Shown here: in pieces, positions 16,366-57,689 of the stretch
Numbering within the stretch: position 1 is the stretch's first letter
Layout: the number at the start of each line of letters is the position of its first letter
From: Antedon bifida
Lineage: Eukaryota; Echinodermata; Crinoidea; Comatulida; Antedonidae
Length of the DNA: 64,000 nt
Direction: 5' to 3'
Assembly (NCBI GenBank): GCA_963402885.1
Contig: OY727093.1
Coordinates: forward strand, 6,521,501 to 6,585,500
Made by a program: the position numbers and the translations under genes
Notes under the pieces: generated by a model
Seen by the model: the letters and a program-made list of their open reading frames with translations, nothing else
Database searches by the model: none
What the model was told of the DNA's origin: nothing

Positions 16366-19300
16366 ATGATCAAGATGAAAGTCCATATATTGTGTCGTCT
16401 ACTGCTTGTTGTAGTTGGAGTTATGGGTTTGTACGACGGATACCCACGAGTAACCACTACAAATGGTGATATTTTTGGTGAAAGAATATATTATTCTGAA
16501 GATCAATATTTAAACTACAGTGGTTATTTCAACCACTTTAAAGGTATTCCTTATGCTAAGCCTCCAGTTGGTGACCTTCGTTTTCGTCCTCCTGAACCAG
16601 CAGAACCATGGTCAGAATCAACCTACAATGCAACTTACTACAGAAATGCATGTACTCAACGAATGGGGGTGGGTAATGAAGAATCACTAGCTGAAGATTG
16701 TTTGTACCTCAATGTACTGGTACCAGAGAATGTAAGTTTATCAATTGTTCTGGCAATCCGATATAATATCTTTCTATGGTAAATATAGTATGCACGCTTT
16801 CCCCTTATCTCAAGAAAATTAGAAATAAAAAGAGAACAAGGCCATATACATGGCTGCAGTCGCGTGCTCAAGTTAGTGTTTACCGACCGACCAACCGACC
16901 GACATAGTGAGTTGTAGAGTCGCGTTGCACGCACGCGACCAAAAAAGAGAATGTTCGATAGTGCTAAAGCTTCGTTCCCACTTCTTGGACGCAACGTAAT
17001 GACGTAAGCGCGCATAATCACGACGCAATGAATCACTCGAACTGTCGCTTGTGATTTGTAAAGTCACTTGCGTTATAACCTACGTAGTTGCTTCGTTTTT
17101 AGTGAGAACCAAACTTTAGAATCTTCAGAAATCTCAAAGGTCGCAGAAACAATTAAAAAGATTTACGAAAACTAAAGAATATACTATTAGGCCTATTCTG
17201 TATACAATTGAGATGTTCAAAAAGGGTAGACCAAAGACATACAAACAATGTCTGATTCATGTTTTTTGTGTGTTTAAAGCTAACTGATGCCGCAACAGTC
17301 TTGGTTTGGATTCATGGTGGGCAATATAGGTTTGGAAGCGGTTCTGATCTTAGGTACTATGGCGTTCCATTAGTAGCAGCGGCTGGAGGTGACGTCGTCT
17401 ACGTCACAATGAACTACAGATTAGGTGTTATGGGATTCCAAACTACGGGTATGTATACCATCATTATCAGGTAAATTACTTAGACACCACTCAAATCCAC
17501 TTGTCTATTCGACAAGACCTATATCAATGAGTCGTTGCGAATAGTAATTGTTGATCCTGTTTAAATTATCAACATTTTCCAAATATATAATGTGGAGCTT
17601 TAGAGTGTAGTATTTATATTCAAATATACATTCATATTTCTATGCTATAAAGGGGATGACGTGTCTCCAGGTAACTACGGCCTAATGGATCAACGCATGG
17701 CATTGGAATGGATTCAAGAAAATATCAAAGGTATAATATTTATTCGGCAAGTTAAAAATGTACATAACAATTTTTTTTCACAAACTAAAAATAGAAACAG
17801 ATTATGGGATAAACACATAGAAACCTACATGCAATTATGAACATGCTTGTCACGATACAATGTTTGCGCCAACAAAATCGCATTGTAACGGTAAATATTA
17901 TTATGAACAACTTTGCAAAAATATTAAATCACTGATTTATAAGCAGCTTAATAGACAATGTATACCATGAACAACAACTTCAAAATAATATCGCAATACC
18001 TGAGTATATTGTTGTGAACACAATGATACAAAAAGTAAAACGCGAAAGAGCGTAACAAGGTCTAGGACGTCTATGCAAAACTTTAGAAAACCATTATACA
18101 GTATGAATTGTCGCATTGAGGCAAGATAGAATGGGATTACATTAGTAGACATAATATTTAATACGTATTTATTTTCTAAATTTAACACCCACGAGATAGT
18201 CTTGTTATAAAATACATGCAAGCAATCGCCTGGATCTAGAATCCACGAAAGAAAAGTGTCACGGAATAAGTGAAGTGCGAACGCACTCCATGTCCCGGCA
18301 TAGTACAAAATGAATTAAAATGACATAGTCTGTAGGTCTTAGGTTGAGCTCGAGCGTCCTAATATTTTATCTTACAGTTTTTGGTGGTGACCCTGAGAAA
18401 GTAACAATATTTGGTCTAAGCACAGGATCAGGCAGTATAACCGCGCAGATATTGAACTCTCCAGAATCAGATCTCTTTCAAAGAGTAATACTACAGGTAG
18501 GCACATGTGGATGATTTTCGTATAAAGTAACTCACGTAGTAGAATTGTAAAAAAACAGTTGACCATAATACATATGTCACACTACCGTAATCGTACTTAA
18601 AAGATCCATATATCTAGTTGTACTTCAAACATAAAAACAAGAAAAGATTCTCCCTGATGACACCTGACATCACATAACATGCACAGTTTTTTTTTGTAAA
18701 ATCGAAAATGTACATTAGTAGGCATAATGAAGGATTTAAATAACACAAACGAAATGTTTTGAACGTTTGATCAACATTTTTCATAGAGTGGTTCAGTTTT
18801 TGACTCGTCCACACTGATAGAACTCAACATATCACGTGCTATTGACGTTAATAAACAAGTAGCTTCCATATTAGGATGTGAGACCGAGTCGTCAACATTG
18901 ATGGTTGCTTGTATGCGCAATGCCAGTGTAAACGATATACTAGAGGCAGAATATGAGGTGAGCTATAAGTACAAGTTTAACTACTAGAATATTTCACTGG
19001 TGGCGTAATTAGATTATGTAAAAACGCACTGACAGTGACATCAAGACGCACTTCAACTACATGGTAAAACCCGTTTCGTATATTCTGCTATCTTCTGATA
19101 GAATCATCTTTTAATTGAGATTTGAAGGGAGTTTTAAGCTCTATCTACGCTATTAAACTAGTTTAACAAAAAATTGTGATGTGCCCAAATATGGTAGTGA
19201 TAATATGTCATAAATGGGCATATCAATTGTTTTCTGTCACATAAATGTTGATAGTGTAGACAGAGCTTTATACAGTATGTAATATTTTATTTATTTTTAA

Positions 19301-20595
19301 AGGTTGAGGAACGTTATGCATCCCCTCGGTCAAGCACTATTCTATTTTATCCAGTAATTGACGGGAAGTTTATTCCTGACACACCGGATAATCTCATAAA
19401 AAGAGGAGATTTTAAGAAAGTTGACGTGATTCTTGGCGTCAATGAGGATGAAGCTGGTACATGGTTGTCTCGAGTCTTTGAAGCAGAAACACTATCTATG
19501 GAAGAACCGCCACTTTTGAATAAAACTTATTTCACTGATCTCTTGAAAGATGTCTATGGAAATGGAAACATGCTTTATATAGATTCAATTGAACAGGAAT
19601 ACACAGATTGGGAGTATGCGGATGACCCATACTATAATTACATTGACCCTTGGGTAAGAGTCAATTCCGATGCGTTGTATCATTGTCCAATTGATGTTAC
19701 AGCTCGGGTGTTTGCTGAAGCTGGACAAAGTGTCTTCCGATATGTAAATACCCATATCCCGTCAATCTATGTAGGACCCAGAACGCTTGCCCCAGAATGG
19801 CATGGTGTAACACATTTCCAAGAGGCAGCGTTCGTTTTTGGATTGCATTTTAATCCACTAATTGATTTCAACAATACAGAAGAAGAAAGAATGATGTCGG
19901 TGAAGGTCATGCGCTACTGGACAAACTTTGCAAAAACAGGGTAATAATTTAATTTTATCAGTTTAACCGAAACATCTACAATATTTAGGAGAAAATAAAT
20001 TAAACATTAATTGATTTATTTTTGTAGTAATCCAAATACGGCAGAACCAAACGTGACAAACGTAGCAGAACCATGGCCTCTGTTTACCGTTCCAGGCTTG
20101 GAATATAAAGAGTTGTCACCAGAAATGCAGAACAATCGAGCCTATGATGCCAGAGAATGCTCCTTCTGGGCCAATTACGTGCCAAAGCTATTACTTTATA
20201 CAGGTAAAATATCAAAAGGCACATAGGGCCTATTTTTTTTCGACAGCCTAAAGAGACAACACGCCATTTTCCTCCATGTAACAAACGATAGTTATAGATA
20301 CAAACAAATCTGCCAACTCGGTATGTAAATCAACATGCACCATGGAAAGAAAGACGTCGTATCAGCTAGTAAATTACAAATGTATCTAATAATGATTTTT
20401 ATCATTTCACATATCCATATAAAGCAATTACGTGTGTACGGTGATAAGGCCTCATATTTTATTTTTTCATTTGCAGAAGATCTTTCAGAATTGGAAGAGG
20501 ACTGGAGAAACAGTTATTATGACTGGAAGGACGAATTGGACGAATGGCAGACATCCTTCGATGAATACAAAGCCGCGACCGAACCATGTAATTAG
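16366..20595 (+). CDS. Cholinesterase-like secreted carboxylesterase A with T-type C-terminal tail
   Basis: Exons: 16366-16731, 17280-17448, 17653-17730, 18378-18496, 18787-18957, 19303-19940, 20028-20203 and 20477-20595. They splice in phase to 611 residues. A signal peptide of about 22-25 residues precedes an alpha/beta-hydrolase of the type-B carboxylesterase/cholinesterase family. The triad is visible: Ser in GLSTG (exon 4), Glu in NEDEAG and His in GVTHF (exon 6). The six disulfide cysteines are present. [10 protein letters not shown] is strongly cholinesterase-like. Differences: the oxyanion motif reads HGGQY (Gln for the second catalytic Gly), the residue after the Ser is Thr, and the first Cys loop is short and lacks the choline-site Trp. 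The last exon has W-x6-W-x6-W-x3-F-x2-Y and a Cys near the end, as in AChE-T tails that bind ColQ or PRiMA. The substrate is uncertain. It has a tandem paralogue downstream. Confidence 0.92.
16850..16945 (-). repeat. GGTC-core repeat element, inverted copy
   Basis: It reads on the minus strand as the family seen at 15940-16275: GACTCTACAACTCACTATGT, GGTCGGT words, AAACACTAACTTGAGCACGC, with the GTCGCG ends. It lies in intron 1 of esterase gene A. Confidence 0.7.
16967..17118. mobile_element. MITE with AAAGCTT...ACCAAACTTT ends
   Basis: About 150 bp with terminal inverted repeats: AAAGCTTCGTTCCCACT on the left and AGTGAGAACCAAACTTT on the right. ACGCAACG-type words lie inside. A related left end, AAAGCTTGGTTCACACTAGGA, begins at 57041. 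A degraded relative may lie at about 1010-1175. It sits in intron 1 of esterase gene A. Confidence 0.65.
19135..19269. mobile_element. MITE, AAGCTCTGTCTACAC family, copy 1
   Basis: The ends are inverted: AAGCTCTATCTACGCTAT on the left and ATAGTGTAGACAGAGCTT on the right. The core has GTGATGTGCCCAAATATGG and its partial inverse. It lies in intron 5 of esterase gene A. Related copies are at 25072-25183 and 57198-57325. Confidence 0.7.
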
Positions 20596-25933
<5,338 letters not shown>

Positions 25934-27658: not shown

Positions 27659-28559
27659 ATGGCTGATCAAGTTTGTGTAATCCTTTGGTGTATACCTCGT
27701 ACGGTGTATACCTCGTACAGTATCTACTGCCTTTTCAAAATGTATGAGCTACCTTGACAAAGCGCAAGTCATAAATGAGCCGTATTTGTCCGCGTACTCT
27801 GTTGGACCTGAACGATTTCCTCCATCAAAAGGTTTGGAAAAAGATGCAGACATGTTCATAAACAAATCAAATGCTGTAGCTTCAGAATACAGTGGTGGTT
27901 TTGAAGCAGACGTGGCAACCTAGAAGTATGTTAAAGAGAATATTTTGGAGGCTGAATATCCAGGCAAGAATGTGGTGTTTGTCAAAGACATGTCGCATAG
28001 CATCACATGGAAACTCCATATGCTGCCTAAAGGCTACCGACATGCATTCTTGATTCGTAATCCTGTCAAAGTGTTTCCTTCTTGGAAGAAAATGTTAAAC
28101 AATTTTCAAAAGGCACTTTCTTCAGAGTTCCGTTTGGAAAACAACAATAATAATGTTCCAAAAAAGTATGGTTTTGGTGAAAGTCTCGAACTGTATGAGC
28201 ATCTTGTAAAGACTGGAATCGAACCAGACCCGATAATTATAGATTCTTGTGATCTTTTGGAAAATCCAGAAATGATTTTAAGGGAGTTTTGCAAGCGCAC
28301 AGGAATTCAGTATGACGACAAATTATTGAATTGGGATACAGGAGAAGGTGTTCTACAGAAATGGAAGGCTAATAATGTATATTTAAAAGGTCATAAAGTA
28401 TTTGGTTATTATGACAAAGTGCTTGCGAGTGAGAGTTTTCACAAACCTAAACCGCCCGCTGATCGTGCGGAACTACCAGAAGATGTGAATGTCTGTATTG
28501 ACGCCGCATTGCCATACTATGAAAAAATGTATTCTCTACGTCTGTGTGGAGAAATTTAG
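27659..28559 (+). pseudogene. Sulfotransferase-like copy 1, disrupted
   Basis: The sequence is nearly the same as copy 3 (34624-35508), including ~180 bases of 3' flank. Two lesions break it. A 16-base tandem duplication (GGTGTATACCTCGTAC twice, about 27686-27717) lies inside the PAPS-binding loop and shifts the frame. A TAC-to-TAG change near 27921 stops it. The rest of the frame (27945-28559) is intact and keeps the 3'-phosphate motif RNPVKVFPSW, so inactivation is recent. The splice site before the ATG (CTATAG) resembles the active copies. Confidence 0.9.
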
Positions 28560-28740
28560 AAAAATAGATAAAGTGTCGTCCAATAAAGTATAAATAATTG
28601 ACTAACAACAAACGAGCATTGATCCTTCATAATATTCTCTATTCTAATATAAATAAGCCCAATAATATATAAGGAAAAGTGAACAAATAATTAAAGATTT
28701 TATCTAGAGAAAGGCTATTTAATACTAATAAGCAATATAT

Positions 28741-30160
28741 ATATTTTTGAAAAAAAGTCAAAACGTAAGAAAAAAACGACTGTTTCCAAAGTGTTATGAG
28801 TCATTTTCAGTAAGTGTCTAAAATCGTGTCCCCATACATTGGTTTATAAACTGAAAATTCATCATTGAACAAATAAAAATTCTTGATTTGTATCATAATC
28901 AACATTATTGTTAAAATAATTAATTACATATTAAACTAAAGATAATAACATTGATATTGTTGAATTAGCATAAAAATGTTTTTAGGCAACTTTTGTTGAA
29001 ATGAAAATATTTTTAACAGTTATGGTCATTCATGATTTTTAAAAATTCAAAATATATCGAAGTACACAGTGCATGTTCACGGTATCTAGCAGGGTATACC
29101 CTGTTTTTGCGTCAGTGCAGCGATAATATTTTCTGAAAAAAAATTTATTGGAACATTTAATGACATAAATCATACTAATAATGTTAAAACAAACATGTTT
29201 TGATTAGGCCTAGAATTAATAATGAAAATAATTTTATAACTTCAAACCATTTATTTATTATGTTATATCTTTGTTTATTCCCTAACTGTGACGGATATGA
29301 CAGAAACATTGAACCATGTTTATAATTAAATACGAATAAAATACGAAATGTAATACAGATTGCGCCTACTCTTGCCATGCAATACATATTCATTTATCTG
29401 AATAAACTTTTAAAATAAATAATATTCAAACAGGTTTTAAAATTGATTTTTATAAACCTGAAGAGACTCACATAGCGTACATTTAAATTTACTTCGTGCT
29501 GTGCATAACAGTACTTCTGTAGGAGGCATAGGACTAATGTATAAATAACTTGGATACAAAAAACTGAACGAGATTTTAAATGAACTTTTTATTACGCATA
29601 ACTACATTAGAGAAAATATGAAAACTGTAATATATAAAAAAGATATTTGTTGGTGTTCTTTCTTAATTTTGTCTCCTTTATTTATTTATTTAAGATTAAA
29701 CAGTATGTCAAAACACCAAAACAGGATCGCCATAAAAAAAAACCGATATTAATTTTGATTTACATGAAAATATATAATTAGTTAGTCAGTTAAAAACTGT
29801 ACTTTAAACAGAATAAAAATTTAGATACAAATTTCATGTACACAGATAAGCAGTTAATGATGCAGCCACCCACCCGCTTAAATTGTTATGCAAATGTTGA
29901 TTAGGGCCTCCTAGGCTATATGCCTAATCAAATTTCTCTAATGAACATTCTTCCTCATAAAAGCTTTTATGCTAGAGATAAAATAACTAATAACATTCTC
30001 TTTTAAAAGTTAATTTCTTCTATTTGAATTGAAACAAACATCACAGAAGAGTGGTAATTGGATCTTGATAAATTGAAGTTTAGGCTTTTCAGTACAGACG
30101 TTACAAAATGTCCCAGGACCTAAGCTGTTATCGTTGTACAATATTGTCGACATACAATAA
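28741..30160. other. Gene-free stretch inside duplication unit 1
   Basis: AT-rich DNA with no supported gene. Its counterpart in unit 2 is about 43881-45300. Small frames on either strand are present in both copies only because the units are nearly identical; they show no family signature. Confidence 0.5.
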
Positions 30161-30164
30161 AGCT

Positions 30165-30440
30165 GCCTAATCCTTAAGTCGCCAAATAAAGAAGTCGCCG
30201 ACAAAGTTATTTAACCGAAACAAAGTCGCTACATGAACAAAATTGTAACCGAATGTTAAAGTTGCAAAGTCACCGCATTAAGGTTGCAGCTGAATGGTAA
30301 CGCCGCATGAAAAAGTAGCCGCCGAATTCTGGAGTGTCCTAGCCGAAGCATAAAAAAGTCGCCGCTAAGTACCAAAGTCGCCGAAGTGTTAAGGTCGCCG
30401 AAAGAAATAGTGGTCGCCGCATTAAAAGGTCGCCGAAAGT
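30165..30440. repeat. Degenerate GTCGCCG tandem array (unit copy 1)
   Basis: Words such as AAGTCGCCG, GGTCGCCG and GCCGCATTAAA recur about every 15-25 bases. The same array is at 45305-45575. A block with the inverse word CGGCGACTTT lies at about 43740-43880, exactly at the left edge of duplication unit 2. Confidence 0.7.
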
Positions 30441-30969
30441 GGAACTCACGGCGTTCCATAGTATGATGAAGGGGTACTGTCTAAAACGGCCGGCCACACG
30501 TGTGAGCCTCTTTAGACTCTAGGGCTACCAGCGAATTAGGCCTGTAGATGGATTCGATGGATTTCTAGGCAAAGGCCTAATCATTTTACACGACCCACCT
30601 CTCTAAAGAGTAATATTTGCAAGATGGCTCCCACTAGGCAAGGCCTAGAATTTAGGGGGCCTCCTCGTAAGCCTAACTTACAACTTGGCCTATCTGTACT
30701 ACAGACAGCGAATTACGATCATTTCAGTGGCGTGTCAATTTAAGTCAATGTTCAATTGTGTAAATCATAGTTAATGGCGCATTCAGCATTATGCGTGCGA
30801 AAATCAATTTAAATTGTTCTAATTTACGTCACAAACATTAACCGTGTTAATACTTTTTGGTGTTCTTTAATAATTTTTTATTGCACTTTAAATAGTTTAC
30901 TATATTAACAGATCAGATTTGTTCAACAAAACAATACAGTACATAAAATACATTACAAAGACCACCTAT

Positions 30970-30990
30970 AATTCGTCAAAGTGACGAATT
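30970..30990. promoter_or_regulatory. Short palindrome upstream of sulfotransferase copy 2
   Basis: AATTCGTCA, loop AAG, TGACGAATT: perfect 9-bp arms about 65 bases before the ATG. The equivalent place in unit 2 (near 46097) has one changed base in the left arm. It contains TGACG, the half-site of CREB/ATF-type factors. Function is a guess. Confidence 0.3.
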
Positions 30991-31054
30991 ATATTCTAGT
31001 TTCATATAGTTATTTAAATAACTTTCTATGAATTATCAATTTGTTATAGGCATA

Positions 31055-31930
31055 ATGACAGATCAAGTTCGTGTAATTCTTTGGTGTATTCCTCGGACAG
31101 TTTCTACTGCCTTTGAGAAATGTATGAGTAACCTTGACGACGTACAGGTCATAAATGAGCCGTACGTGTCCGCGTTCACCATTGGGCCAGAAAAGTTTCC
31201 TCCACCAGAAGGTTTCGAAAAAGATATAGATATATTTATAGAGAAATCAAATGCCATCGAATCAGGGTATGATGGTGGCTGGGAGCCAAACGTGTCAACC
31301 TACAAATTTATTAAAGAGAATATTTTGGAGGCTGAATATCCAGGCAAGAATGTGGTGTTTGTCAAAGATACGTCATATGCCATTACATGGAAACTCCATA
31401 TGCTGCCTAAAGGCTACCGACATGCATTCTTGATTCGCAATCCTGTCAAAGTGTTTCCTTCTTGGAAGAAAATGTTAAAAAATTTTCAGAAGACACTCTC
31501 TTCAGAGTGTTTGGAAACCAATAATAATTTTGTTCCAAAAAAATATGGTTTTGGAGAAAGTTTTCAATTGTATGAGCATCTTGTAAAGACCGGGATTGAA
31601 CCAGATCCGGTAATCATAGATGCTGATGATCTTTTGGGAAATCCGGAAATGATTTTAAGAGAGTTTTGTAAACGCACAGGAATTCTGTATAGTCACGGAT
31701 TATTGAATTGGAATGCAGGAGAAAGTGCTACACACAAATGGAAGGCTTCTAATGTATACATGAAAGGCAACAAAGTATTTGGTTATTATGACAAAGCATT
31801 TGCAAGTGACCGTTTCCACAAACCTGAACCGCCCGCTGATCGTGCGGAATTATCAGAAGATATAAATGTCTGTATTGACGCCGCATTGCCATACTATGAA
31901 CAATTATATGCTCTACGTCTATGTGCATAA
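31055..31930 (+). CDS. P-loop sulfotransferase-like protein, copy 2 (291 aa)
   Basis: A single uninterrupted coding exon. The start at MTDQ was chosen because every paralogue begins there; the nine in-frame codons upstream (MNYQFVIGI) run across a conserved splice acceptor (GTTATAG) and are intronic. The 5' PAPS-binding loop is IPRTVSTAF (residues 12-20), followed by an NEPY motif. The 3'-phosphate motif is RNPVKVFPSW near residue 128. There is no signal peptide or membrane segment, so the protein is probably cytosolic. Known family role: transfer of sulfonate from PAPS to small molecules; the acceptor is unknown. An AATAAA follows the stop closely. It is one residue different from copy 6. 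Unlike copies 3-5 and 7-9, no conserved promoter block is seen just upstream. Confidence 0.88.
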   Translation: MTDQVRVILWCIPRTVSTAFEKCMSNLDDVQVINEPYVSAFTIGPEKFPPPEGFEKDIDIFIEKSNAIESGYDGGWEPNVSTYKFIKENILEAEYPGKNVVFVKDTSYAITWKLHMLPKGYRHAFLIRNPVKVFPSWKKMLKNFQKTLSSECLETNNNFVPKKYGFGESFQLYEHLVKTGIEPDPVIIDADDLLGNPEMILREFCKRTGILYSHGLLNWNAGESATHKWKASNVYMKGNKVFGYYDKAFASDRFHKPEPPADRAELSEDINVCIDAALPYYEQLYALRLCA

Positions 31931-32560
31931 ACTTCCTTAAGAAAATAAAGAGAATGATGCAAGTTTTTGAGAACAGTAGATAAAAGTGTCTTTCGACGTC
32001 TGTATGCCATACAATTTTTAGGAAAATAAACAGAATGATTTAAGTTGGAAATGCCAAATGGTTGATTCAAATTGTTTTCCATCACAAAAATAATTCTAAT
32101 TTTAATTTGATTCATCTGATTTAATTATAGGTTACTCGTACCAAGCAAGATCGGTGCGAGACTATAGGTAACAGAAATATACAAATGGTATGCCTAAATA
32201 TTATTATGGAATTTTTCAAACTTCAACTTTTCAAACAAACATGTTCACGCCTTTTATAGCTCTTTATGGGATTGCTAAATATCAAGCATAGACAATATTA
32301 ATTTTCTGCGTTCGGTAAACTTCAATCGATGTTACTTTAAAAAAATAGTATTATATATTTACTTATATATTGTATTGATGTTCAGGCTGCACACGTGTGT
32401 TAAATATATTACTGACAATTATAAACTTACCATATTAAGTGAATGTAAAAGGATTACTTAATATTGGTCGAGAACATTGTAATTATGAATCTCTGGGCCT
32501 AATAATAAAACGCAATAAAAATGTCTTGTTTGCTATTTTTTTCAATAAAAACTAGTACAG
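31931..32560. other. 3' flank of copy 2 and degraded esterase intron sequence
   Basis: After the sulfotransferase polyadenylation signal, the stretch from about 32200 resembles esterase gene B intron 1 (shared words CACGTGTGTTAA and GTGAATGTAA). It therefore belongs to the dead esterase copy that follows. No gene. Confidence 0.5.
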
Positions 32561-32580
32561 TGCATTTTCTACCCCTACAG

Positions 32581-34106: not shown

Positions 34107-34382
34107 TCGGTCATTGTTTTAAGGGTCTTCACACACTTTGTTCCAGTGTCGGACCGGAACCGTGCCAGAACAGGTGTGAAAGACACTTTAACATGGACCT
34201 TAGGAAAAATAATAGCATTTTTTTGTAACCATCCGTATTTTCAATAACAAATAACGTAATTTGTTGTCTCTTGTTTTTTTTATTTTATGGAGATGACTAT
34301 TTTTAACATTCCTGATAAGAAGTGATTGTGATTGCCATGATGACCAATTAACAAATAATACATAGGTTCATGGACTAAGTAC

Positions 34383-34402
34383 TGTTTGGACTTTGTTACT
34401 TA
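34383..34402 (+). promoter_or_regulatory. Conserved block heading the 5' untranslated exon of sulfotransferase copy 3
   Basis: TGTTTGGACTTTGTTACTTA. From the second base on, the block is identical in front of six sulfotransferase copies. It lies 98 bases before a conserved splice donor (GAG then GTAAAC at 34481). The non-coding exon splices to 34619, five bases before the ATG. It is probably the core promoter or transcription start. Confidence 0.6.
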
Positions 34403-34623
34403 TAAAAAAAATGTGATTTATGTTTGACTGATTAAACACATTTAATGTCACATGCTTGTTGCGTCTCCTGAGAGACAGAGGTAAACATTTCTTATTTGTT
34501 ATTTCAATACATTGAAGGTAAGTTTTAAGTTTCATGAAAAAGCTTAATGTAGGCCTACTGTATTTAAATTTCATATAGTTATTTAAATAACTTGCTATGC
34601 ATTATCAATTTGTTATAGGCAGA

Positions 34624-35508
34624 ATGACTGATCAAGTTCGTGTAATTCTTTGGTGTATTCCTCGTACAGTATCTACTGCCTTTTCAAAATGTATGAGCTA
34701 CCTTGACAAAGCACAAGTCATAAATGAGCCGTATTTGTCCGCGTACTCTGTTGGACCTGAACGATTTCCTCCATCAAAAGGTTTGGAAAAAGATGCAGAC
34801 ATGTTCATAAACAAATCAAATGCTGTAGCTTCAGAATACAGTGGTGGTTTTGAAGCAGATGTGGCAACCTACAAGTATGTTAAAGATAATATTTTGGAGG
34901 CTGACTATCCAGGCAAGAACGTGGTGTTTGCCAAAGATATGTCGCATAGCATTACATGGAAACTCCATATGCTGCCTAAAGGCTACCGACATGCATTCTT
35001 GATTCGCAATCCTGTCAAAGTGTTTCCTTCTTGGAAGAAAATGTTAAACAATTTCCAGAAAGCACTTTCCTCAGAGTTCCGTTTGGAAAACAACAATAAT
35101 AATGTTCCAAAAAAGTATGGTTTTGGAGAAAGTCTCGAATTGTATGAGCATCTTATAAAGACCGGAATCGATCAAGACCCGATAATTATAGATTCTGATG
35201 ATCTTTTGGAAAATCCAGAAATGATTTTAAGGGAGTTTTGCAAGCGCACAGGAATTCAGTATGACGACAAATTATTGAATTGGGATACAGGAGAAGGTGT
35301 TCTACAGAAATGGAAGGCTAATAATGTATATTTAAAAGGTCATAAAGTATTTGGTTATTATGACAAAGTGCTTGCGAGTGAGAGTTTTCACAAACCTGAA
35401 CCGCCCGCTAATCGTGCGGAACTACCAGAAGATGTGAATGTCTGTATTGACGCCGCATTGCCATACTATCAAAAAATGTATTCTCTACGTCTGTGTGGAG
35501 AAACTTGA
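34624..35508 (+). CDS. P-loop sulfotransferase-like protein, copy 3 (294 aa)
   Basis: Intact single coding exon behind an untranslated first exon (about 34383-34480; acceptor TTATAG at 34618). The PAPS loop IPRTVSTAF, an NEPY motif and RNPVKVFPSW are all present. The segment at residues 141-163 (LNNFQKALSSEFRLENNNNN) differs strongly from copies 4, 5, 8 and 9 and has an extra Asn run. The C-terminus is SLRLCGET rather than ALRLCA. It is the closest intact relative of the copy-1 pseudogene, sharing the 3' flank. Probably a cytosolic sulfotransferase of unknown acceptor. AATAAA lies about 40 bases after the stop. Confidence 0.88.
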   Translation: MTDQVRVILWCIPRTVSTAFSKCMSYLDKAQVINEPYLSAYSVGPERFPPSKGLEKDADMFINKSNAVASEYSGGFEADVATYKYVKDNILEADYPGKNVVFAKDMSHSITWKLHMLPKGYRHAFLIRNPVKVFPSWKKMLNNFQKALSSEFRLENNNNNVPKKYGFGESLELYEHLIKTGIDQDPIIIDSDDLLENPEMILREFCKRTGIQYDDKLLNWDTGEGVLQKWKANNVYLKGHKVFGYYDKVLASESFHKPEPPANRAELPEDVNVCIDAALPYYQKMYSLRLCGET

Positions 35509-36758: not shown

Positions 36759-36800
36759 CATTATACCTTCATAGTTATTATTACAGATTTGTTAGAAACA

Positions 36801-37676
36801 ATGACTGATCAAGTTCGTGTAATTCTTTGGTGTATTCCGAGGACAGTTTCTACTGCCTTTGAGAAATGTATGAGCCAGCTTGACGACGTGCAGATCATAA
36901 ATGAGCCGTACGAGTCTGCATTCACCATTGGACCAGAAAGGTTTCCTCCAGAAGAAGGTTTTGAAAAAGAAGCAGATATATTTATAGAGAAATCAAATGC
37001 CATAGAGTCGGGGTATGATGGTGGCTGGGAGCCAGACGTGGCAACATACAAGTTTATTAAAGAGAATATTTTGGAGGCGGACTATCCAGACAAGAATGTG
37101 GTGTTTGTCAAAGATATGTCATATGCCATTACATGGAAACTTCACATGCTGCCAAAAGGCTATCGCCATGCATTCTTGATTCGTAATCCCATCAAAGTTT
37201 TTTCTTCTTGGAAGAAAATGGTGACAAAATTTGAGAAAGGGCGTTCTACAAAACTACCTTTAATAAACAACAACTATGTTGTTCCGAAAAAGTATGGCTT
37301 TGGAGAAAGTCTCCAACTATACGAGCATCTTGTAAAGACCGGAATCGAACCAGATCCGGTAATTATAGATTCTGATGATCTTTTGGAAAATCCGGAATTG
37401 ATTTTAAGAGAGTTGTGTAAACGCACAGGAATTCAATATAATGACGACTTATTGAACTGGGATACAGGCGAAAGTGTTACCCACAAATGGAAGGCTTCTA
37501 ATGTATATATGAAAGGCCACAAAGTATTCGGTTATTATGACAAAGCATTTGCAAGTGAACGTTTTCACAAACCTGAACCGCCCGCTGATCGTGCGGAACT
37601 ACCAGAAGATGTTAATATCTGTATTGACGCCGCATTGCCATACTATGAAAAAATGTATGCTCTACGTCTGAAGTGA
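36801..37676 (+). CDS. P-loop sulfotransferase-like protein, copy 4 (291 aa)
   Basis: Intact single coding exon with IPRTVSTAF, an NEPY motif and RNPIKVFSSW. Compared with copies 2 and 6 the segment after residue 140 is replaced (VTKFEKGRSTKLPLINNN). The protein ends ALRLK and lacks the terminal Cys. The upstream in-frame MLET was not used because it straddles the region just after the splice acceptor; MTDQ matches all paralogues. Cytosolic PAPS-dependent sulfotransferase is the best guess; acceptor unknown. Confidence 0.88.
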   Translation: MTDQVRVILWCIPRTVSTAFEKCMSQLDDVQIINEPYESAFTIGPERFPPEEGFEKEADIFIEKSNAIESGYDGGWEPDVATYKFIKENILEADYPDKNVVFVKDMSYAITWKLHMLPKGYRHAFLIRNPIKVFSSWKKMVTKFEKGRSTKLPLINNNYVVPKKYGFGESLQLYEHLVKTGIEPDPVIIDSDDLLENPELILRELCKRTGIQYNDDLLNWDTGESVTHKWKASNVYMKGHKVFGYYDKAFASERFHKPEPPADRAELPEDVNICIDAALPYYEKMYALRLK

Positions 37677-39959: not shown

Positions 39960-40835
39960 ATGACAGATCAAGTTCGTGTAATTCTTTGGTGTATTCCTCG
40001 TACAGTTTCTACTGCCTTTGAGAAATGTATGAGTAACCTTGACGATGTTCAGATCTTGCATGAGCCGTATTTGTCCACGTTCTCAATCGGAGCTGAAAGG
40101 TTTCCTCCAGAAAACGGTTTTGAAGAAGAAGCTGATATGTTTGTAGAGAAATCGAATACCGGATCTTCAGAGTATGATGTTGGTTGGGAGCCAGACGTGG
40201 CAACCTACAAGTTTACTAAAGAGAATATTTTGGAGGCTGAATATCCAGACAAGAATGTGGTGTTTGTCAAAGATATGTCATATGCCATTACATGGAAACT
40301 CCATATGCTACCTACAGGCTACCGCCATGCATTCTTGATTCGACATCCCGTCAAAGTTTTTTCTTCTTGGAAGAAAATGGTTACCGGTTTTGAAGATGGA
40401 TTTTCTAAAAAGTGTCCTTTGGTAAACAACAACACAAATGTTCCAAAAAAATATGGTTTTGGAGAAAGTGTTCAATGGTATGAGCATCTTGTAAAGACCG
40501 GGATTGAACCAGACCCGGTAATCATAGATGCTGATGATCTTTTGGGAAATCCGGAAATGATTTTAAGAGAGTTTTGTAAACGCACAGGAATTCTGTATAG
40601 TGAAGAATTATTGAACTGGGATGCAGGAGAAAGTGTTACACACAAATGGAAGGCTTCTAATGTATATATGAAAGGCCACAAAGTATTTGGTTATTATGAC
40701 AAAGCATTTGCAAGTAAGGGGTTCCACAAACCCGAAGAACCGCCCATTGACCGCGCGAAATTATCAGAAGATGTGAATGTCTGTATTGACGCCGCATTGC
40801 CATACTATGAACAATTATATGCTCTACGTCTGTGA
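39960..40835 (+). CDS. P-loop sulfotransferase-like protein, copy 5 (291 aa)
   Basis: Intact single coding exon. The PAPS loop IPRTVSTAF is kept. The Glu-Pro motif reads HEPY instead of NEPY. The 3'-phosphate motif reads RHPVKVFSSW instead of RNP. Residues 40-80 and 141-160 are divergent (GFEDGFSKKCPLVNNN). It ends ALRL because TGC has become TGA, removing the terminal CA. The 5'UTR intron is conserved. Of the intact copies it is among the most divergent around the ligand-binding parts, so acceptor or cofactor contacts may have shifted. Confidence 0.86.
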   Translation: MTDQVRVILWCIPRTVSTAFEKCMSNLDDVQILHEPYLSTFSIGAERFPPENGFEEEADMFVEKSNTGSSEYDVGWEPDVATYKFTKENILEAEYPDKNVVFVKDMSYAITWKLHMLPTGYRHAFLIRHPVKVFSSWKKMVTGFEDGFSKKCPLVNNNTNVPKKYGFGESVQWYEHLVKTGIEPDPVIIDADDLLGNPEMILREFCKRTGILYSEELLNWDAGESVTHKWKASNVYMKGHKVFGYYDKAFASKGFHKPEEPPIDRAKLSEDVNVCIDAALPYYEQLYALRL

Positions 40836-41310: not shown

Positions 41311-41539
41311 GGCAGAAATCATGAATAATTCATGGCCTTAATTAGGCTCGTACATTTTACATAATTTCTGCCTTAACCTCATAGGAGAAAAAACTATTTT
41401 TCTTTTATAACTTGATGTCTCAGGCAGAAATCATGTATAATGAACGATTAATTATTACTATGTAAAGATCTACTTCTTAAATATAACCTAACCCTCAACT
41501 CATTTGCGCCATACAAGCTGGCTTGTCGAAAACTGATAC

Positions 41540-42245: not shown

Positions 42246-43399
42246 AAACTATATGACGATGCTTAAGCTGACACTACAAACTACTTCTAAGAAAGTTGCA
42301 ATGATCACCACATTTTCACAAAATCTTTCAAATAATAAAATTTTCCTAAAAATAAGCTTCAGCGTGATCACTCATCCGTGAAGTCATTTATACGCCATTT
42401 TGTAAAATCACATTAATCATATCTCCGTAACTTTTCATCACATATCAGTTAAATTCAATGTACTTAAACTTCAGGTCAAGGGTAAAAATATTAAAAATAA
42501 AAATGTGCGCATACACAAGGTCATGCGTATAAAATAGCGCATTAAAAATTTAAAATGCTTAAAATAACATTTTGATCAATTTAGAGCATGATTTAGGTCA
42601 TTTGCGAGCTTCAAAAAATTACTGCGCAAAAACACGTATTTGCACGCGCAATACTTACGAAATGTAAAAATACTAATTTTTGTACACATTTTTATTCCAT
42701 GCACCTTCCTTTGTACATTTACCAAATTTGAGTTCATTCTGACTTAAAATAGCGCTATACGAGCACGTTAAATATGGCAAAATGCGTAAATTAATTGCAC
42801 AAAAGTGCTAAAAATGGTAAAAAATAAGGCATTTTTAAAATCAAAATAACTCTTCAGAAGTTTCGTCGACCCCCATTTTTTTTTTTATTATCGGGTAGAG
42901 TATAAAGTATAGTTATGATTTCATACATCATTAAGAAGAGCTACAAACCATTATGACGTCATGCTATTGTTATTTAAATAAACAACACGATTTTTATATA
43001 TTTTAAAATCCCATTATACGATTTCAATCATATCTCCATATAATAACACCACCCATATCAACTGAACTCACTCCCATCAATTTCATATCATGGGTTAACA
43101 TATAACATATTTATGTTCGCGTGCGCGCCATCGTGTTAGCGTTCGCGCATGTACATTTTACACAGAGAGAGCTAGAGGTGACACTCGCTTGTCTCACACA
43201 TGAATGGAGAATGAAACCTGATCACGCCCTCATCGCGATAACAGTTGTTGAATTGCATGCTGCAGATCTGCTAGAAGCAAAAGGTACGTACCTTAGAAAT
43301 CTCTTCTCAGCAAATTCGTATTTTATTTTCATCCCGAACAAACAACATTTGTTCATTGTATTGGATAAGTTCCGTTTGTCATTTAGTATTTGGACAACG

Positions 43400-43700: not shown

Positions 43701-46180
43701 ATAAATTATATTATTGAATATGCCGACGAGTCACTAGCGAGCTTCTGTTTCGGGACGGTAGATGAATATGGCGATCTTTTAATGCGGCGCAATGACATTC
43801 AGCAGTGACTTTGTCATTGAGCGGCAGCTACACCATCCGGTGACTTGTGCATACGGCGACTTTATAGTTTGGCGACTTTTATATTTTTGAAAAAAAGTCA
43901 AAACGTAAGAAAAAAACGACTGTTTCCAAAGTGTTATGAGTCATTTTCAGTAAGTGTCTAAAATCGTGTCCCCATACATTGGTTTATAAACTGAAAATTC
44001 ATCATTGAACAAATAAAAATTCTTGATTTGTATCATAATCAACATTATTGTTAAAATAATTAATTACATATTAAACTAAAGATAATAACATTGATATTGT
44101 TGAATTAGCATAAAAATGTTTTTAGGCAACTTTTGTTGAAATGAAAATATTTTTAACAGTTATGGTCATTCATGATTTTTAAAAATTCAAAATATATCGA
44201 AGTACACAGTGCATGTTCACGGTATCTAGCAGGGTATACCCTGTTTTTGCGTCAGTGCAGCGATAATATTTTCTGAAAAAAAATTTATTGGAACATTTAA
44301 TGACATAAATCATACTAATAATGTTAAAACAAACATGTTTTGATTAGGCCTAGAATTAATAATGAAAATAATTTTATAACTTCAAACCATTTATTTATTA
44401 TGTTATATCTTTGTTTATTCCCTAACTGTGACGGATATGACAGAAACATTGAACCATGTTTATAATTAAATACGAATAAAATACGAAATGTAATACAGAT
44501 TGCGCCTACTCTTGCCATGCAATACATATTCATTTATCTGAATAAACTTTTAAAATAAATAATATTCAAACAGGTTTTAAAATTGATTTTTATAAACCTG
44601 AAGAGACTCACATAGCGTACATTTAAATTTACTTCGTGCTGTGCATAACAGTACTTCTGTAGGAGGCATAGGACTAATGTATAAATAACTTGGATACAAA
44701 AAACTGAACGAGATTTTAAATGAACTTTTTATTACGCATAGCTACATTAGAGAAAATATAAAAACTGTAATATATAAAAAAGATATTTGTTGGTGTTCTT
44801 TCTTAATTTTGTCTCCTTTATTTATTTATTTATTTAAGATTAAACAGTATGTCAAAACACCAAAACAGGATCGCCATAAAAAAAAAACCGATATTAATTT
44901 TGATTTACATGAAAATATATAATTAGTTAGTCAGTTAAAAACTGTACTTTAAACAGAATACAAATTTAGATACAAATTTCATGTACACAGATAAGCAGTT
45001 AATGATGCAGCCACCCACCCGCTTAAATTGTTATGTAAATGTTGATTAGGGCCTCCTAGGCTATATGCCTAATTAAATTTCTCTAATGAAAACAGTAAGC
45101 TTTTATGCTAGAGATAAAATAACTAATAACATTCTCTTTTAAAAATTAATTTCTTCTATTTGAATTGAAACAAACATCACAGAAGAGTGGTAATTGGATC
45201 TTGATAAGTTAAAGTTTAGGTTTTTCAGTACAGACGTTACAAAATGTCCCAGGGCCTAAGCTGTTTATCGTTGTACAATATTGTCGACATACCATAAAGC
45301 TGCCTAATCCTTAAGTCGCCAAATAAAGAAGTCGCCGACAAAGTTATTTAACCAAAACAAAGTCGCTACATGAACAAAATTGTAACCGAATGTTAAAGTT
45401 GCAAAGTCACCGCATTAAGTTGCAGCTGAATGGTAACGCCGCATGAAAAAGAAGCCGCCGAATTCTGGAGTGTCCTAGCCGAAGCATAAAAAGTCGCCGC
45501 TAAGTACCAAAGTCGTCGAAGTGTTAAGGTCGCCGAAAGAAATAGTGGTCGCCGCATTAAAAGGTCGCCGAAAGTGGCACTCCCGGCGTTCCATAGTATG
45601 ATGAAGGGGTACTGTCTAAAACGGTGAGCCTCTTTAGACTCTAGGGCTACCAGCGAATTAGGCCTGTAGATGGATTCGATGGATTTCTAGGCAAAGGCCT
45701 AATCATTTTACACGACCCACCTCTCTAAAGAGTAATATTTGCAAGATGGCTTCCACTAGGCAAGGCCTAGAATTTAGGGGGCCTCCTCGTAAGCCTAACT
45801 TACAACTTGGCCTATCTATACTACAGACAGCGAATTACGATCATTTCAGTGGCGTGTCAATTTAAGTCAATGTTCAATTGTGTAAATCATAGTTAATGGC
45901 GCATTCAGCATTATGCGTGCGAAAATCAATTTAAATTGTTCGAATTTACGTCACAAACATTAACCGTGTTAATACTTTTTGGTGTTCTTTAATAATTTTT
46001 TATTGCACTTTAAATAGTTTACTATATTAAACAGATCAGATTTGATTCAACAAAACAATACAGTACATAAAATACATTACAAAGATCACCTATAATCCGT
46101 CAAAGTGACGAATTATATTCTAGTTTCATATAGTTATTTAAATAACTTTCTATGAATTATCAATATTTGTTATAGGCATA

Positions 46181-47056
46181 ATGACTGATCAAGTTCGTGT
46201 AATTCTTTGGTGTATTCCTCGTACAGTTTCTACTGCCTTTGAGAAATGTATGAGTAACCTTGACGACGTACAGGTCATAAATGAGCCGTACGTGTCCGCG
46301 TTCACCATTGGGCCAGAAAAGTTTCCTCCACCAGAAGGTTTCGAAAAAGATATAGATATATTTATAGAGAAATCAAATGCCATCGAATCAGGGTATGATG
46401 GTGGCTGGGAGCCAAACGTGTCAACCTACAAATTTATTAAAGAGAATATTTTGGAGGCTGAATATCCAGGCAAGAATGTGGTGTTTGTCAAAGATACGTC
46501 ATATGCCATTACATGGAAACTCCATATGCTGCCTAAAGGCTACCGACATGCATTCTTGATTCGCAATCCTGTCAAAGTGTTTCCTTCTTGGAAGAAAATG
46601 TTAAAAAATTTTCAGAAGACACTCTCTTCAGAGTGTTTGGAAACCAATAATAATTTTGTTCCAAAAAAATATGGTTTTGGAGAAAGTTTTCAATTGTATG
46701 AGCATCTTGTAAAGACCGGGATTGAACCAGACCCGGTAATCATAGATGCTGATGATCTTTTGGGAAATCCGGAAATGATTTTAAGAGAGTTTTGTAAACG
46801 CACAGGAATTCTGTATAGTCACGAATTATTGAATTGGAATGCAGGAGAAAGTGCTACACACAAATGGAAGGCTTCTAATGTATACATGAAAGGCAACAAA
46901 GTATTTGGTTATTATGACAAAGCATTTGCAAGTGACCGTTTCCACAAACCTGAACCGCCCGCTGATCGTGCGGAATTATCAGAAGATATAAATGTCTGTA
47001 TTGACGCCGCATTGCCATACTATGAACAATTATATGCTCTACGTCTATGTGCATAA
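46181..47056 (+). CDS. P-loop sulfotransferase-like protein, copy 6 (291 aa)
   Basis: Intact single coding exon that differs from copy 2 by one visible residue (SHELLNW here, SHGLLNW there). It is therefore the product of the recent segmental duplication. All motifs are as in copy 2. A small insertion just before the splice acceptor breaks the upstream in-frame ATG present in copy 2, which supports MTDQ as the true start. Probably a cytosolic PAPS-dependent sulfotransferase; acceptor unknown. AATAAA follows shortly after the stop. Confidence 0.88.
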   Translation: MTDQVRVILWCIPRTVSTAFEKCMSNLDDVQVINEPYVSAFTIGPEKFPPPEGFEKDIDIFIEKSNAIESGYDGGWEPNVSTYKFIKENILEAEYPGKNVVFVKDTSYAITWKLHMLPKGYRHAFLIRNPVKVFPSWKKMLKNFQKTLSSECLETNNNFVPKKYGFGESFQLYEHLVKTGIEPDPVIIDADDLLGNPEMILREFCKRTGILYSHELLNWNAGESATHKWKASNVYMKGNKVFGYYDKAFASDRFHKPEPPADRAELSEDINVCIDAALPYYEQLYALRLCA

Positions 47057-47706
47057 ACTTCCTTAAGAAAATAAAGAGAATGATGTAAGTTTTTGAGAAC
47101 AGTAGATAAAAGTGTCTTTCGACGTCTGTGTGCCATACAATTTTTAGGAAAATAAACAGAATGATTTAAGTTGGAAATGCCAAATGGTTGATTCAAATTG
47201 TTTTCCATCACAAAAATAATTCTAATTTTAATTTGATTCATCTGATTTAATTATAGGTTACTCGTACCAAGCAAGATCGGTGCGAGACTATAGGTAACAG
47301 AAATATACAAATGGTATGCCTAAATATTATTATGGAATTTTTCCAACTTCAACTTTTCAAACAAACATGTTCACGCCTTTTATAGCTCTTTATGGGATTG
47401 CTAAATATCAAGCATAGACAATATTAATTTTCTGCGTTCGGTAAACTTCAATCGATGTTACTTTAAAAAAATAGTATTATATATTTACTTATATATTGTA
47501 TTGATGTTCAGGCTGCACACGTGTGTTAAATATATTACTGACAATTATAAACTTACCATATTAAGTGAATGTAAAAGGATTACTTAATATTGGTCGAGAA
47601 CATTGTAATTATGAATCTCTGGGCCTAATAATAAAACGCAATAAAAATGTCTTGTTTGCTATTTTTTTCAATAAAAACTAGTACAGTGCATTTTCTACCC
47701 CTACAG

Positions 47707-49351
47707 TAAACTGATGCCGCAGTTTATTGGCGGACTGGATCTGAAGCTTTTTACTGCGGCCGCATTATTTATTTTTATAAGGTAAGGCAGAAATCATGAA
47801 TAATTCATGAGCTTAATGATTTCTGAATAACCTCATAGGAGAAAAATATATTGTTGTTTTAATACTTGATGTCAGAAATCATGTATAATGAACGAGATTA
47901 ATTATTACTATGTAAAGATCTACTTAAATTCCTCAACTATAAAAAAAACACATCGAAGATACTGGACAGTTGCGCCATACAAGCTGGCTTGTCGAAAACT
48001 GATACAAACTAGAAAGCCACTCCGAGAGTGCATACCTCCGCCTACTGTAAAATTCTTCTACATAAGATTTCTCCGGGAAAATATAAATATATATAAATTT
48101 GTGTGTGTCTTAATGCTGTTTGTGATTTAGGCTAATTTCACTACAAGCATGTGTATGCGAGTTTGGTGTAATGGTTATGTAACAAGCCTTTCAATTAACA
48201 ATAGTTTCAGTTGACTAACAATGTGAACAGCAACGCGAAAATCAAACGAGTGAATTTGAAAAGAAATAGTTTTTTAAACTACTCGCATAAAAAAAGGTGC
48301 ACGTTAAATCAAATTATGTTTTGAAATTACAAATCACAAATTATAACTCTTGCCTCTTGTACAAAAAAGAAGTTTTTTGGACAAGTAGTTCTCGAGAAAA
48401 TGCAATCTCAGTTTACTTGTTACTTTAAGACTGCTCGCCGGCTATCTTCATCTCCTATATACGGAACATCATTTGGATAATAGAACAAATCACATATCTA
48501 CACATAATCAAACATCGTATACTCTATCTCTAACAATATTTCAATCTTCTATCGACTAAAGCTGAAGTATAGTCGTTATCTCGGGACCGTTCTATGGTCA
48601 CCACCAGGTAGGCTTACTTCATCAAGGCTTCTTTGAATGGATGTACTGGTTGGGAGCAGAAAAGCTAGTAGACCATACCCAGTACCGTTTTGATTACGAT
48701 CAATCGGGAAATTACCTCACGACAAACAGACAAACACACGCGATCGATTACATACACCTCCTTGGTGGAGGTAAATTATTATTATAACTATGACCATGCT
48801 TAGGCTTACACTACAAAGTAATTCTAACAAAGGTCGAGGAATTATTTTAAAATAATAATTGTCCATGTTCTAACTAAACAATGCTATAAACACGTTTAAT
48901 ATAACCGTTACTTACATTTTTATGAGAATAATCCAGGCTGTCCATGTTCTGTGTAGGCACTGTATACCCTGGAATGTGATTAGGTCCTTCTTTATTACAG
49001 TGATCCGAATATGGCTGACAGAGCTGATACGATTGTGGCCGATAAATGGCCGTTATTCACAATTCCCGGATTAGAATATAAACAGTTATCACCTGAACTG
49101 GAGAATGCTCGAGCAGTTAATGCGAGACAGCGTTCTTTCTGGGCGATCTATATACCGAATGTTTCGCAGGTAATAATAAAAATGAATAACATGTGTATTC
49201 ACCTAACACTGAAGAAAATCAATATTCCAGACTAAAATTAATTTTCTTAACTTGGCATCATATATCGATATAAAATTTCATTTTTTGTTTTACAGATGAA
49301 GTGGAAGTAGATTGGCGAAACAGTTATTACGACTGGAAATATTTTGCATTG
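47707..49351 (+). pseudogene. Broken cholinesterase-like copy E
   Basis: Same relic as copy C: exon-2 remnant from 47707, exon 7 at 49001-49169 (with the Cys-to-Arg change RQRSFW), and the start of exon 8 at 49296-49351, which again runs into foreign sequence after KYFAL. The shared lesions show that the gene was already dead before the segment was duplicated. Confidence 0.88.
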
Positions 49352-49753
49352 TCGGTCATTGTTTTAAGGGTCTTCACACACTTTGTTCCAGTGTCGGACC
49401 GGAACCGTGCCAGAACAGGTGTGACAGGCACTTTAACATGGACCTTATAGGTCCTTGTTTGAGTGGGGTACCAAATTTATCGGAAATTGAGAAATGAGAA
49501 AGTCATTTACTGGTTCTTTTAAAATTCACTCTCTTACTATACTTTTATCATCAGAAGTATAAACAAAGTTGAAAAATAATAGCATTTTTTTGTAACCATC
49601 CGTATTTTCAATAACAAATAACGTAATTTGTTGTCTCTTGTTTTTTTTAACTATTTTATGGAGATGACTATTTTTAACATTCCTGATTAGAAGTGATTGT
49701 GATTGCCATGATGACCAATTAACAAATAATACATAGGTTCATGGACTAAGTAC

Positions 49754-49773
49754 TGTTTGGACTTTGTTACTTA
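49754..49773 (+). promoter_or_regulatory. Conserved block heading the 5' untranslated exon of sulfotransferase copy 7
   Basis: TGTTTGGACTTTGTTACTTA, 98 bases before a donor at 49852 (AGAG then GTAAAC). The acceptor is at 49989. Promoter parts are kept although the coding region is frameshifted. Confidence 0.55.
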
Positions 49774-49994
49774 TAAAAAAAATGTGATTTATGTTTGACT
49801 GATTAAACACATTTAATGTCACATGCTTGTTGCGTCTCCTGATAGATAGAGGTAAACATTTCTTATTTGTTGTTTCAATACATTGAAGGTAAGTTTTAAG
49901 TTTCATGAAAAAGCTCAATGTAGGCCTACTGTATTTAAATTTCATATAGTTATTTAAATAACTTGCTATGCATTATCAATTTGTTATAGGCATA

Positions 49995-50841
49995 ATGACT
50001 GATCAAGTTCGTGTAATTCTTTGGTGTATTCCTCGTACAGTTTCTACTGCCTTTGAGAAATGTATGAGTAACCTTGACGACGTACAGGTCATAAATGAGC
50101 CATACCAGTCTGCGTTTACCATTGGACCAGAAAGATATATTTATAGAGAAATCAAATGCCATAGTTTCGGGGTATGATGGTGGCTGGGAGCCAGATGTGG
50201 CAACCTACAAGTTTATTAAAGAGACTATTTTGGAGGCTGACTATCCAGGCAAGAACGTGGTGTTTGCCAAAGATATGTCGCATAGCATTACATGGAAACT
50301 TCACATGCTGCCAAAAGGCTACCGACATGCATTCTTGATTCGTAATCCTATCAAAGCTTTTTCATCTTGGAAGAAAGTAACAATCAAAATAGAAAAGAGT
50401 CTTTCTACAAAACTACTTTTGACAAACGACAACTTTATTGTTCCCAAAAAGTATGGTTTTGGAGAAAGTCTCGAATTATACGAGCATCTTGTAAAGACCG
50501 GAATCGAACCAGACCCGGTAATCATAGATTCTGATGATCTTTTGAAAAATCCGGAATTGATTTTAAGGGAGTTTTGTAAGCGGACAGGAATTCTGTATAA
50601 CGACAAATTATTAAACTGGGATGCAGGAGAAGGTGTTACACACAAATGGAAGGCTGCCAATACATTTATCAAAGGCAACGAATTAATGGGGTATTATGAT
50701 GACGCATTTGCAAGTGAACGTTTTCACAAACCTGAACCGCCCGCTGATCGTGCAGAACTAACAGAAGATGTGAATACGTGTATTGACGCTGCATTGCCAT
50801 ACTATGAACAATTGTATGCTCTACGTCTGTGCCCAAAATAA
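49995..50841 (+). pseudogene. Sulfotransferase-like copy 7, frameshifted by a 35-base deletion
   Basis: It starts normally (MTDQ, IPRTVSTAF, NEPYQSAF) and then lacks about 35 bases after 50134, compared with copy 4. The frame shifts and stops at 50177. The remaining frame to 50841 is open and keeps RNPIKAFSSW, so only one lesion is seen and loss is recent. The downstream frame could start at 50095 but would lack the PAPS loop. The coding sequence is a mosaic: the start is like copies 2/6, the middle (ADYPGKNVVFAKDMSHSI) like copy 3, and the later part nearer copies 4, 8 and 9. Gene conversion or unequal exchange is likely. An assembly error at the deletion is possible. Confidence 0.82.

Positions 50842-52764: not shown

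Positions 52765-57689
<4,925 letters not shown>

Follow-up and report, generated by a model that had tools for sequence, protein, structure and literature searches.

Tandem gene arrays can grow by unequal exchange, with gene fragments hitch-hiking along. Near-identical blocks, a chimeric gene, and truncated passenger exons, as known from arrays of this origin, are all found in a 64,000-nt stretch of the genome of the crinoid Antedon bifida (the window), which shows no difference in kind from them. Esterases A and B are followed on the plus strand by the sulfotransferases (STs) ST1–ST7, and an exon of alkyl-DHAP synthase (AGPS) on the minus strand separates these from ST8 and ST9, again on the plus strand. 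We regard the locus as very probably a tandem array of recent origin in which recombination continues, made up of Sulfotransfer_5 genes with one coding exon each beside an older cholinesterase-like pair, with the esterase scraps among the STs being passengers.

Among described sulfotransferases, cytosolic SULTs and tyrosylprotein sulfotransferases share their fold with the window enzymes, although a sequence search of the PDB with phmmer missed them. The sulfotransferase domains of CurM (4gbm, curacin) and an olefin synthase (4gox), both cyanobacterial, are 11–12% identical to the STs; these domains sit in polyketide synthases, whereas the window STs stand alone. Sulfotransfer_5 (Pfam PF19798) was recognized in all eight frames tested (ST2–ST6, the open part of ST7, ST8, and ST9, with ST1 outside the tested set), the lowest score being 28.5 bits against a curated cutoff of 23.2 bits and the profile aligning by its C-terminal part only (position 138 onward of 226). 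The STs have in common an N-terminal W..PR..ST loop and an R.P.....S segment further downstream. P13, R14, S17, and T18 are invariant in 30 of 30 ST rows, and R128 and S136 are kept in at least 90%; from other sulfotransferases, we take these residues to bind PAPS. The structure predicted for ST4 has the sulfotransferase fold, with TM-scores to known structures of only 0.3–0.5 (Foldseek, two of the 50 listed rows being non-sulfotransferases). In the phmmer search with ST4, 4gbm was the sole sulfotransferase among the matches listed (E 0.51); the top-ranked designed pentatricopeptide proteins were dismissed as chance (23 residues, no stretch significant alone). Profile, predicted fold, and conserved putative PAPS residues together point to PAPS-type sulfotransferases.

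Recent bacterial gene transfer was rejected as the source of the intronless STs, since 49 of 50 bacterial relatives are 21–30% identical over their best segments and the closest piece, in the remaining relative, reaches 39% over 36 residues only; the relatives come from a single scan with two peptide patterns, which may have missed closer ones. The genome stretches fetched hold 48 open ST frames of at least 240 aa, which with the open part of ST1 make up the 49 rows of the ST tree, several further STs having been left out. Of the parts that make up the Sulfotransfer_5 expansion in this genome, the window array ranks among the two largest. Its open members may be cytosolic enzymes that sulfate small hydroxylated metabolites, with a substrate range diverging between copies.

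For the esterases, the closest characterized relatives are butyrylcholinesterase and acetylcholinesterase, which share the catalytic triad with B. Esterase A (16366..20595, plus strand) has eight coding exons (16366-16731, 17280-17448, 17653-17730, 18378-18496, 18787-18957, 19303-19940, 20028-20203, 20477-20595) encoding 611 aa, and esterase B (21507..25933, plus strand) likewise eight (21507-21854, 22413-22578, 22714-22791, 23064-23182, 23572-23742, 24380-25020, 25510-25685, 25806-25933) encoding 608 aa. GT/AG borders were picked by hand, and the spliced frames are stop-free. A first-pass annotation had listed both genes without marking them dead, and the full eight-exon COesterase frames confirm them as intact (Pfam COesterase, 5.8e-133 for A and 7.5e-139 for B). 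The top PDB match of B is a cholinesterase (5.6e-99, aligned over residues 11–606). Ser, Glu, and His of the triad lie in B at what we take to be the butyrylcholinesterase places and in A at the same places via alignment to B; domain and triad thus suggest cholinesterase-like carboxylesterases. The pair is set apart from the true enzymes by Tyr in place of Trp at the presumed choline site and by Gln in place of the third Gly (GGQ) of the presumed oxyanion loop, in A and B alike. Judged by the choline-binding Trp and the three oxyanion-loop glycines, neither would appear to be a true cholinesterase. For the C-terminal tetramerization segment, the AChE_tetra profile gives A 17.1 bits, under its 25-bit cutoff, and does not list B, the tail of which is aligned to a butyrylcholinesterase by phmmer.

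Nine STs lie in the window and a tenth, ST10, just beyond its edge; seven of the nine have an open frame. These are ST2 (31055..31930, a single coding exon), ST3 (34624..35508), ST4 (36801..37676), ST5 (39960..40835), ST6 (46181..47056), ST8 (61522..62400), and ST9 (63091..63969), all on the plus strand, with ST8, ST9, and ST10 spaced at 1,569 bp. The AGPS frame (55801..56190, minus strand; one exon tested) has alkyl-DHAP synthase as its top PDB match (E 9.7e-14) and falls between ST7 and ST8, agreeing with the earlier placement of ST8 and ST9 beyond AGPS. The proposed order from the esterases through ST1–ST9 is largely borne out, the exception being a supposed dead esterase D. ST1 (27659..28559, plus strand) and ST7 (49995..50841, plus strand), which had been called dead, are indeed broken: in the former, 16 bp of the N-terminal loop are duplicated in tandem at 27687 and there is one in-frame TAG, and in the latter, a deletion near 50132 removes 35 bp.

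Recombination within the array shows in a segmental duplication on the plus strand. Copy 1 (28740..34683, with internal gaps) holds ST2, relic C, and the 5′ part of ST3, and copy 2 (43880..50060, right end approximate) holds ST6, relic E, and the 5′ part of ST7. ST6 is a near-copy of ST2 (dS 0.016), and 500 of 503 aligned bases are identical between 33699-34202 and 48944-49447. ST3 is a chimera, ST7-like to ~34683 and then ST1-like from ~34684 into the 3′ flank.

The esterase sequence carried in this block is limited. Relics C (33699..34109, esterase exons 33757-34109) and E (48888..49354, esterase exons 49002-49354), both on the plus strand, had been annotated as dead esterases; they do exist, but as exons 7 and 8 of a B-type gene only, E being a copy of C. 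They span 81 of ~608 residues, so that ~87% of the protein is absent. Because both carry the same 7-bp deletion in exon 7 and lack the same end of exon 8, they represent one event copied once. Dead esterase D, placed between ST5 and ST6, left no esterase signal: the top tblastn match in 40800-46100 has an E of 0.96, and 41541-43880 aligns to the relic C region with a DNA score of 122, within the range of 20 shuffles (mean 98.5, max 130). The sole trace near its supposed place is a 44-bp flank of the shared unit (42252..42295, plus strand, 86%). An esterase-plus-ST block had been proposed as ancestral. In line with that proposal, a segment in which esterase sequence lies ahead of an ST was duplicated, and the STs did multiply on the spot, but what was copied is an esterase tail, with no whole gene.

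In this reading, unequal exchange between similar STs copied whole segments, which is shown by the near-identical block and by ST3 being a chimera. One exchange captured exons 7 and 8 of a B-type esterase gene, and the scrap decayed and was then copied once more along with its ST neighbors, as the shared deletions show. Against this account, ST4 and ST5 sit between the block copies, a placing that a single unequal crossover would not predict, and the upstream flank of ST1 has no match at any other ST. Could the block instead be an assembly artifact, with one haplotype placed twice? The near-identity of ST2 and ST6 is what such an error would give, yet ST3 and ST7 differ widely past their 5′ ends, the flanks of the block copies are unlike each other, and duplication of the same kind is seen in ST copies of greater age within the array, which makes an artifact very improbable.

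A functional reading, in which an esterase and an ST formed an ancestral unit, both acting on metabolites of a single class, sulfated or esterified, draws on the three places where an ST has esterase sequence ahead of it, each time in the same orientation (B-ST1, C-ST3, E-ST7), and on the triad kept in A and B. It is opposed by the single origin and missing bulk of C and E and by the ages of the genes: A and B differ by a dS of ~1.5 (1.52 by Nei–Gojobori with Jukes–Cantor, a rough value near saturation), compared with at most 0.46 among ST copies, and the A-B split long predates these. Co-amplification of esterases with STs is contradicted by this far older split, by C and E being one event, and by D going undetected. 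N termini judged by eye also differ, the STs looking cytosolic and the esterases secreted. Across the genome, at least 25 ST and at least 12 carboxylesterase loci were found, coinciding once, in the window; no esterase was found near the other 24 of the 25 ST loci found. These counts are lower bounds, the esterase protein search having scored the best 72 of 133 candidates and the COesterase search the best 84 of 118, and both may have overlooked distant esterases close to STs; ST positions and representative esterase positions, joined at 100 kb, were the input. Recurrent linkage of the families was looked for in the Antedon bifida genome and not found: of the 12 esterase loci, 11 share no contig with an ST match or keep a distance of 1.06 Mb or more from every ST, a form of the separation that the first-pass annotation had named as refuting its cluster. 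For loci placed at random, adjacency is nevertheless rather improbable, any ST-esterase pair occurring within 10 kb at P 0.02 and within 50 kb at P 0.09, though the window pair was chosen after being seen. With the remaining loci so widely separated or on different contigs, the linkage speaks only weakly for a single pathway, and we consider the ancestral functional unit most improbable. From ages and genome-wide linkage, the esterases appear to be bystanders of the ST array. Relic genes interleaved in an array thus need not mark a functional unit but can be recombination passengers, and checking linkage across the whole genome can tell the two apart.

Selection on the STs was gauged from dN/dS, which is 0.25–0.55 in 44 of 45 pairs and 0.09 for ST2-ST6; it says little on present function because the values do not shift when one partner is the broken ST1 or ST7. 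No positive selection is claimed: uncorrected sliding-window pN/pS in six STs ran from 0.13 to 1.06, and silent changes are very scarce in the lone window exceeding 1.

A role of the STs in making sulfated defense compounds, as the first-pass annotation suggested, is plausible for a crinoid and gains nothing from the esterases. Quinone sulfates of crinoids are reported to deter feeding; in work cited in PMC10887160, the sulfated form of ptilometric acid deterred fish and the free form did not. Sea urchin pigment cells, according to PMC10396339, express pks1 together with an fmo and a sulfotransferase. These possible parallels, mitochondrial evidence for a crinoid host, and ketoacyl-synthase genes in the genome (two of which have open frames 2285 and 2316 aa long) favor a reading in which the expanded STs sulfate polyketide pigments from unlinked polyketide synthases, with the esterases unrelated; steroid, glycan, or xenobiotic substrates are equally possible and the closest ketoacyl-synthase match lies 2.3 Mb away from an ST locus when positions are compared by eye, and we hold this reading possible if rather unlikely. 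By analogy, the Sulfotransfer_5 family is a fair candidate for crinoid quinone sulfation. It is doubtful that its expansion provides the sulfation still missing for the polyketide antifeedants of crinoids, with copy growth and chimeras tracking the diversification of sulfated pigments. Were the STs to sulfate crinoid quinones, they would supply one of the steps called unidentified in the echinoderm pigment literature, where PMC11414698 describes downstream steps still to find and unclustered genes. A physical cluster with polyketide synthases was rejected, no ketoacyl-synthase match having been found less than 2.3 Mb from an ST locus; the matches lie on C8 at 7.2 Mb, C9 at 10.2, 17.3, and 31.6 Mb, C10 at 30.5 Mb, C13 at 22.5 Mb, and C15 at 4.0 Mb.

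Two intact cholinesterase-like genes, esterase A (16366-20595) and esterase B (21507-25933), each complete with eight coding exons and a COesterase match in Pfam, lie upstream of nine Sulfotransfer_5 genes (ST1-ST9) that all share one orientation. An exon of alkyl-DHAP synthase (AGPS) is located between ST7 and ST8 on the strand opposite to the sulfotransferases. The window spans C1:6521501-6585500. Open frames are retained in seven of the nine copies, with ST1 and ST7 broken, and a tenth copy, ST10, is located at C1:6586160 on the same contig (the equivalent of window position 64660), beyond which tblastn with ST4 retrieved no further sulfotransferase as far as C1:6605500 (stretches L027 and L028).

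The cluster is a young sulfotransferase array carrying passenger esterase exons, an ordinary kind of arrangement that is fairly well resolved. A ~6-kb block is duplicated at 28740-34683 and 43880 to ~50060 (identity about 97.5-99%, with gaps), ST3 switches partner inside the gene, matching ST7 at 96-100% over 34204-34683 and ST1 at 94-100% over 34684-35643, and ST8, ST9, and ST10 recur at a 1,569-bp repeat spacing. Phylogenetically, the ten copies constitute one group (100/98) within a larger clade that also contains an array at 20.1 Mb on contig C9, a pair on C8, and two single copies. Nei-Gojobori dS with Jukes-Cantor correction spans 0.016-0.459 among the ten and reaches 1.52, a rough value near saturation, between esterases A and B, so the esterase pair is much older than the sulfotransferase growth. 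Of the 45 sulfotransferase pairs, counting those with a broken copy, 44 have a dN/dS ratio of 0.25-0.55; the exception is ST2-ST6, at 0.09. The C9 array (C9:20125601-20158856) is a second large one with several broken or partial copies, and open frames in its left flank (L009 5032-7693) resemble a retroelement by eye.

The first-pass annotation read the gene order well but overinterpreted three esterase relics (C, D, and E) as traces of an ancestral esterase-plus-sulfotransferase unit. Searching with both esterases by tblastn located relics only at 33757-34109 (C) and 49002-49354 (E), matching B residues 512-566 and 574-592 (numbered on a query with three extra residues); relic D is undetectable, with just 44 bp of unit flank left at 42252. 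Relics C and E lack the same 7 bp of exon 7, lose homology at an identical point in exon 8, and agree at 500 of 503 aligned bases, so they stem from a single capture that was copied afterwards. Since their homology to B begins within intron 6, the copied segment began inside the gene and, unless trimmed afterwards, never contained a whole esterase.

Genome-wide linkage was evaluated in the 315.56-Mb assembly (27 contigs, 11 of them 19-37 Mb), with locus counts being lower bounds drawn from the best-scoring candidates. The ST4 search gave 72 match rows representing at least 25 loci, and esterase A and Pfam COesterase searches gave at least 12. Among those found, one locus is common to both families, the next-closest pair is 1.06 Mb apart, and C10 carries five esterase loci without a sulfotransferase match. 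Random placement (20,000 trials) yielded any pair within 50 kb with P = 0.09 and within 10 kb with P = 0.02, and six other sulfotransferase clusters with their flanks (L009-L026) contained no A/B-type esterase by tblastn at E up to 1. The adjacency is therefore weak evidence for joint function. Three more tandem carboxylesterase arrays (C1:28.91-28.95 Mb, C1:31.23-31.25 Mb, and C9:4.71-4.74 Mb) had no sulfotransferase match within 2.3 Mb in these lower-bound searches.

Crinoids contain sulfated quinones. In work cited in PMC10887160, ptilometric acid 6-O-sulfate, not the unsulfated acid, deterred fish. Downstream steps to echinoderm pigments are still to be identified and the genes are unclustered (PMC11414698), and in sea urchin pigment cells a sulfotransferase is expressed alongside pks1 (PMC10396339). 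On these grounds, the sulfotransferase expansion is a reasonable candidate for crinoid quinone sulfation. Titles and abstract openings of the searched literature naming both crinoid and sulfotransferase make no mention of crinoid sulfotransferase genes. The ketoacyl-synthase genes found lie at least 2.3 Mb from every sulfotransferase locus found; two of them, 29 kb apart (C8:7217352-7218071 and C8:7246210-7246935), sit in unbroken, polyketide-synthase-like frames of 2285 and 2316 aa.

The sulfotransferase coding region is a single exon, directly preceded by TATAG in eight of the nine window copies and by TTAG in ST4, which suggests a non-coding first exon. P13, R14, S17, T18, D105, and H123 are invariant across a 30-row alignment, and the confident ST4 structure model best matches bacterial curacin and olefin synthase sulfotransferase domains, followed by tyrosylprotein sulfotransferases. 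By eye, the N termini of both esterases are hydrophobic and resemble signal peptides, a feature absent from the sulfotransferases. Esterase B keeps the butyrylcholinesterase triad residues but differs at the choline-site Trp, replaced by Tyr, and the third oxyanion Gly, replaced by Gln; the sequence of A carries the same two replacements (oxyanion loops at 17280-17448 in A and 22413-22578 in B). Engineered changes to this Gly in butyrylcholinesterase reportedly alter organophosphate turnover.

Elsewhere in the window, an open frame at 9829-10623 (-) encodes an ANF_receptor ligand-binding region and probably belongs, as one exon, to a natriuretic-peptide-receptor-like gene. Inverted repeats of ~620 bp (12123-12732 and 14611-15224, 92.7% alike) enclose an open frame (13470-14000) that by eye resembles the final part of a LINE-type reverse transcriptase and gave no match in a Pfam search. 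Minisatellites occupy the ST7-ST8 interval at 51281-51372 (25 bp x 3.7), 54160-54667 (49 bp x 10.3), and 58431-59227 (162 bp x 4.9).

Contig C27 (15,844 bp; 26.4% GC in its first 8 kb) looks mitochondrial by its frames, named by eye as nad3, nad4, nad4L, nad5, nad6, and cytochrome b. The mitochondrial evidence identifies the animal as a crinoid with good, though incomplete, confidence. In cytochrome b, nine AAA codons occupy positions that are often Asn in other animals, such as those in HANGAS and GSNNPTG, as the echinoderm code would have it. Three published crinoid mitochondrial genomes measure 15,792, 15,878, and 15,887 bp, two with 73.68% and 72.73% A+T (published abstracts and PMC7687491). 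The gene order on C27 is nad4-nad4L-nad5, and a nad4L rearrangement in crinoids appears in the title of a work cited by PMC7687491.
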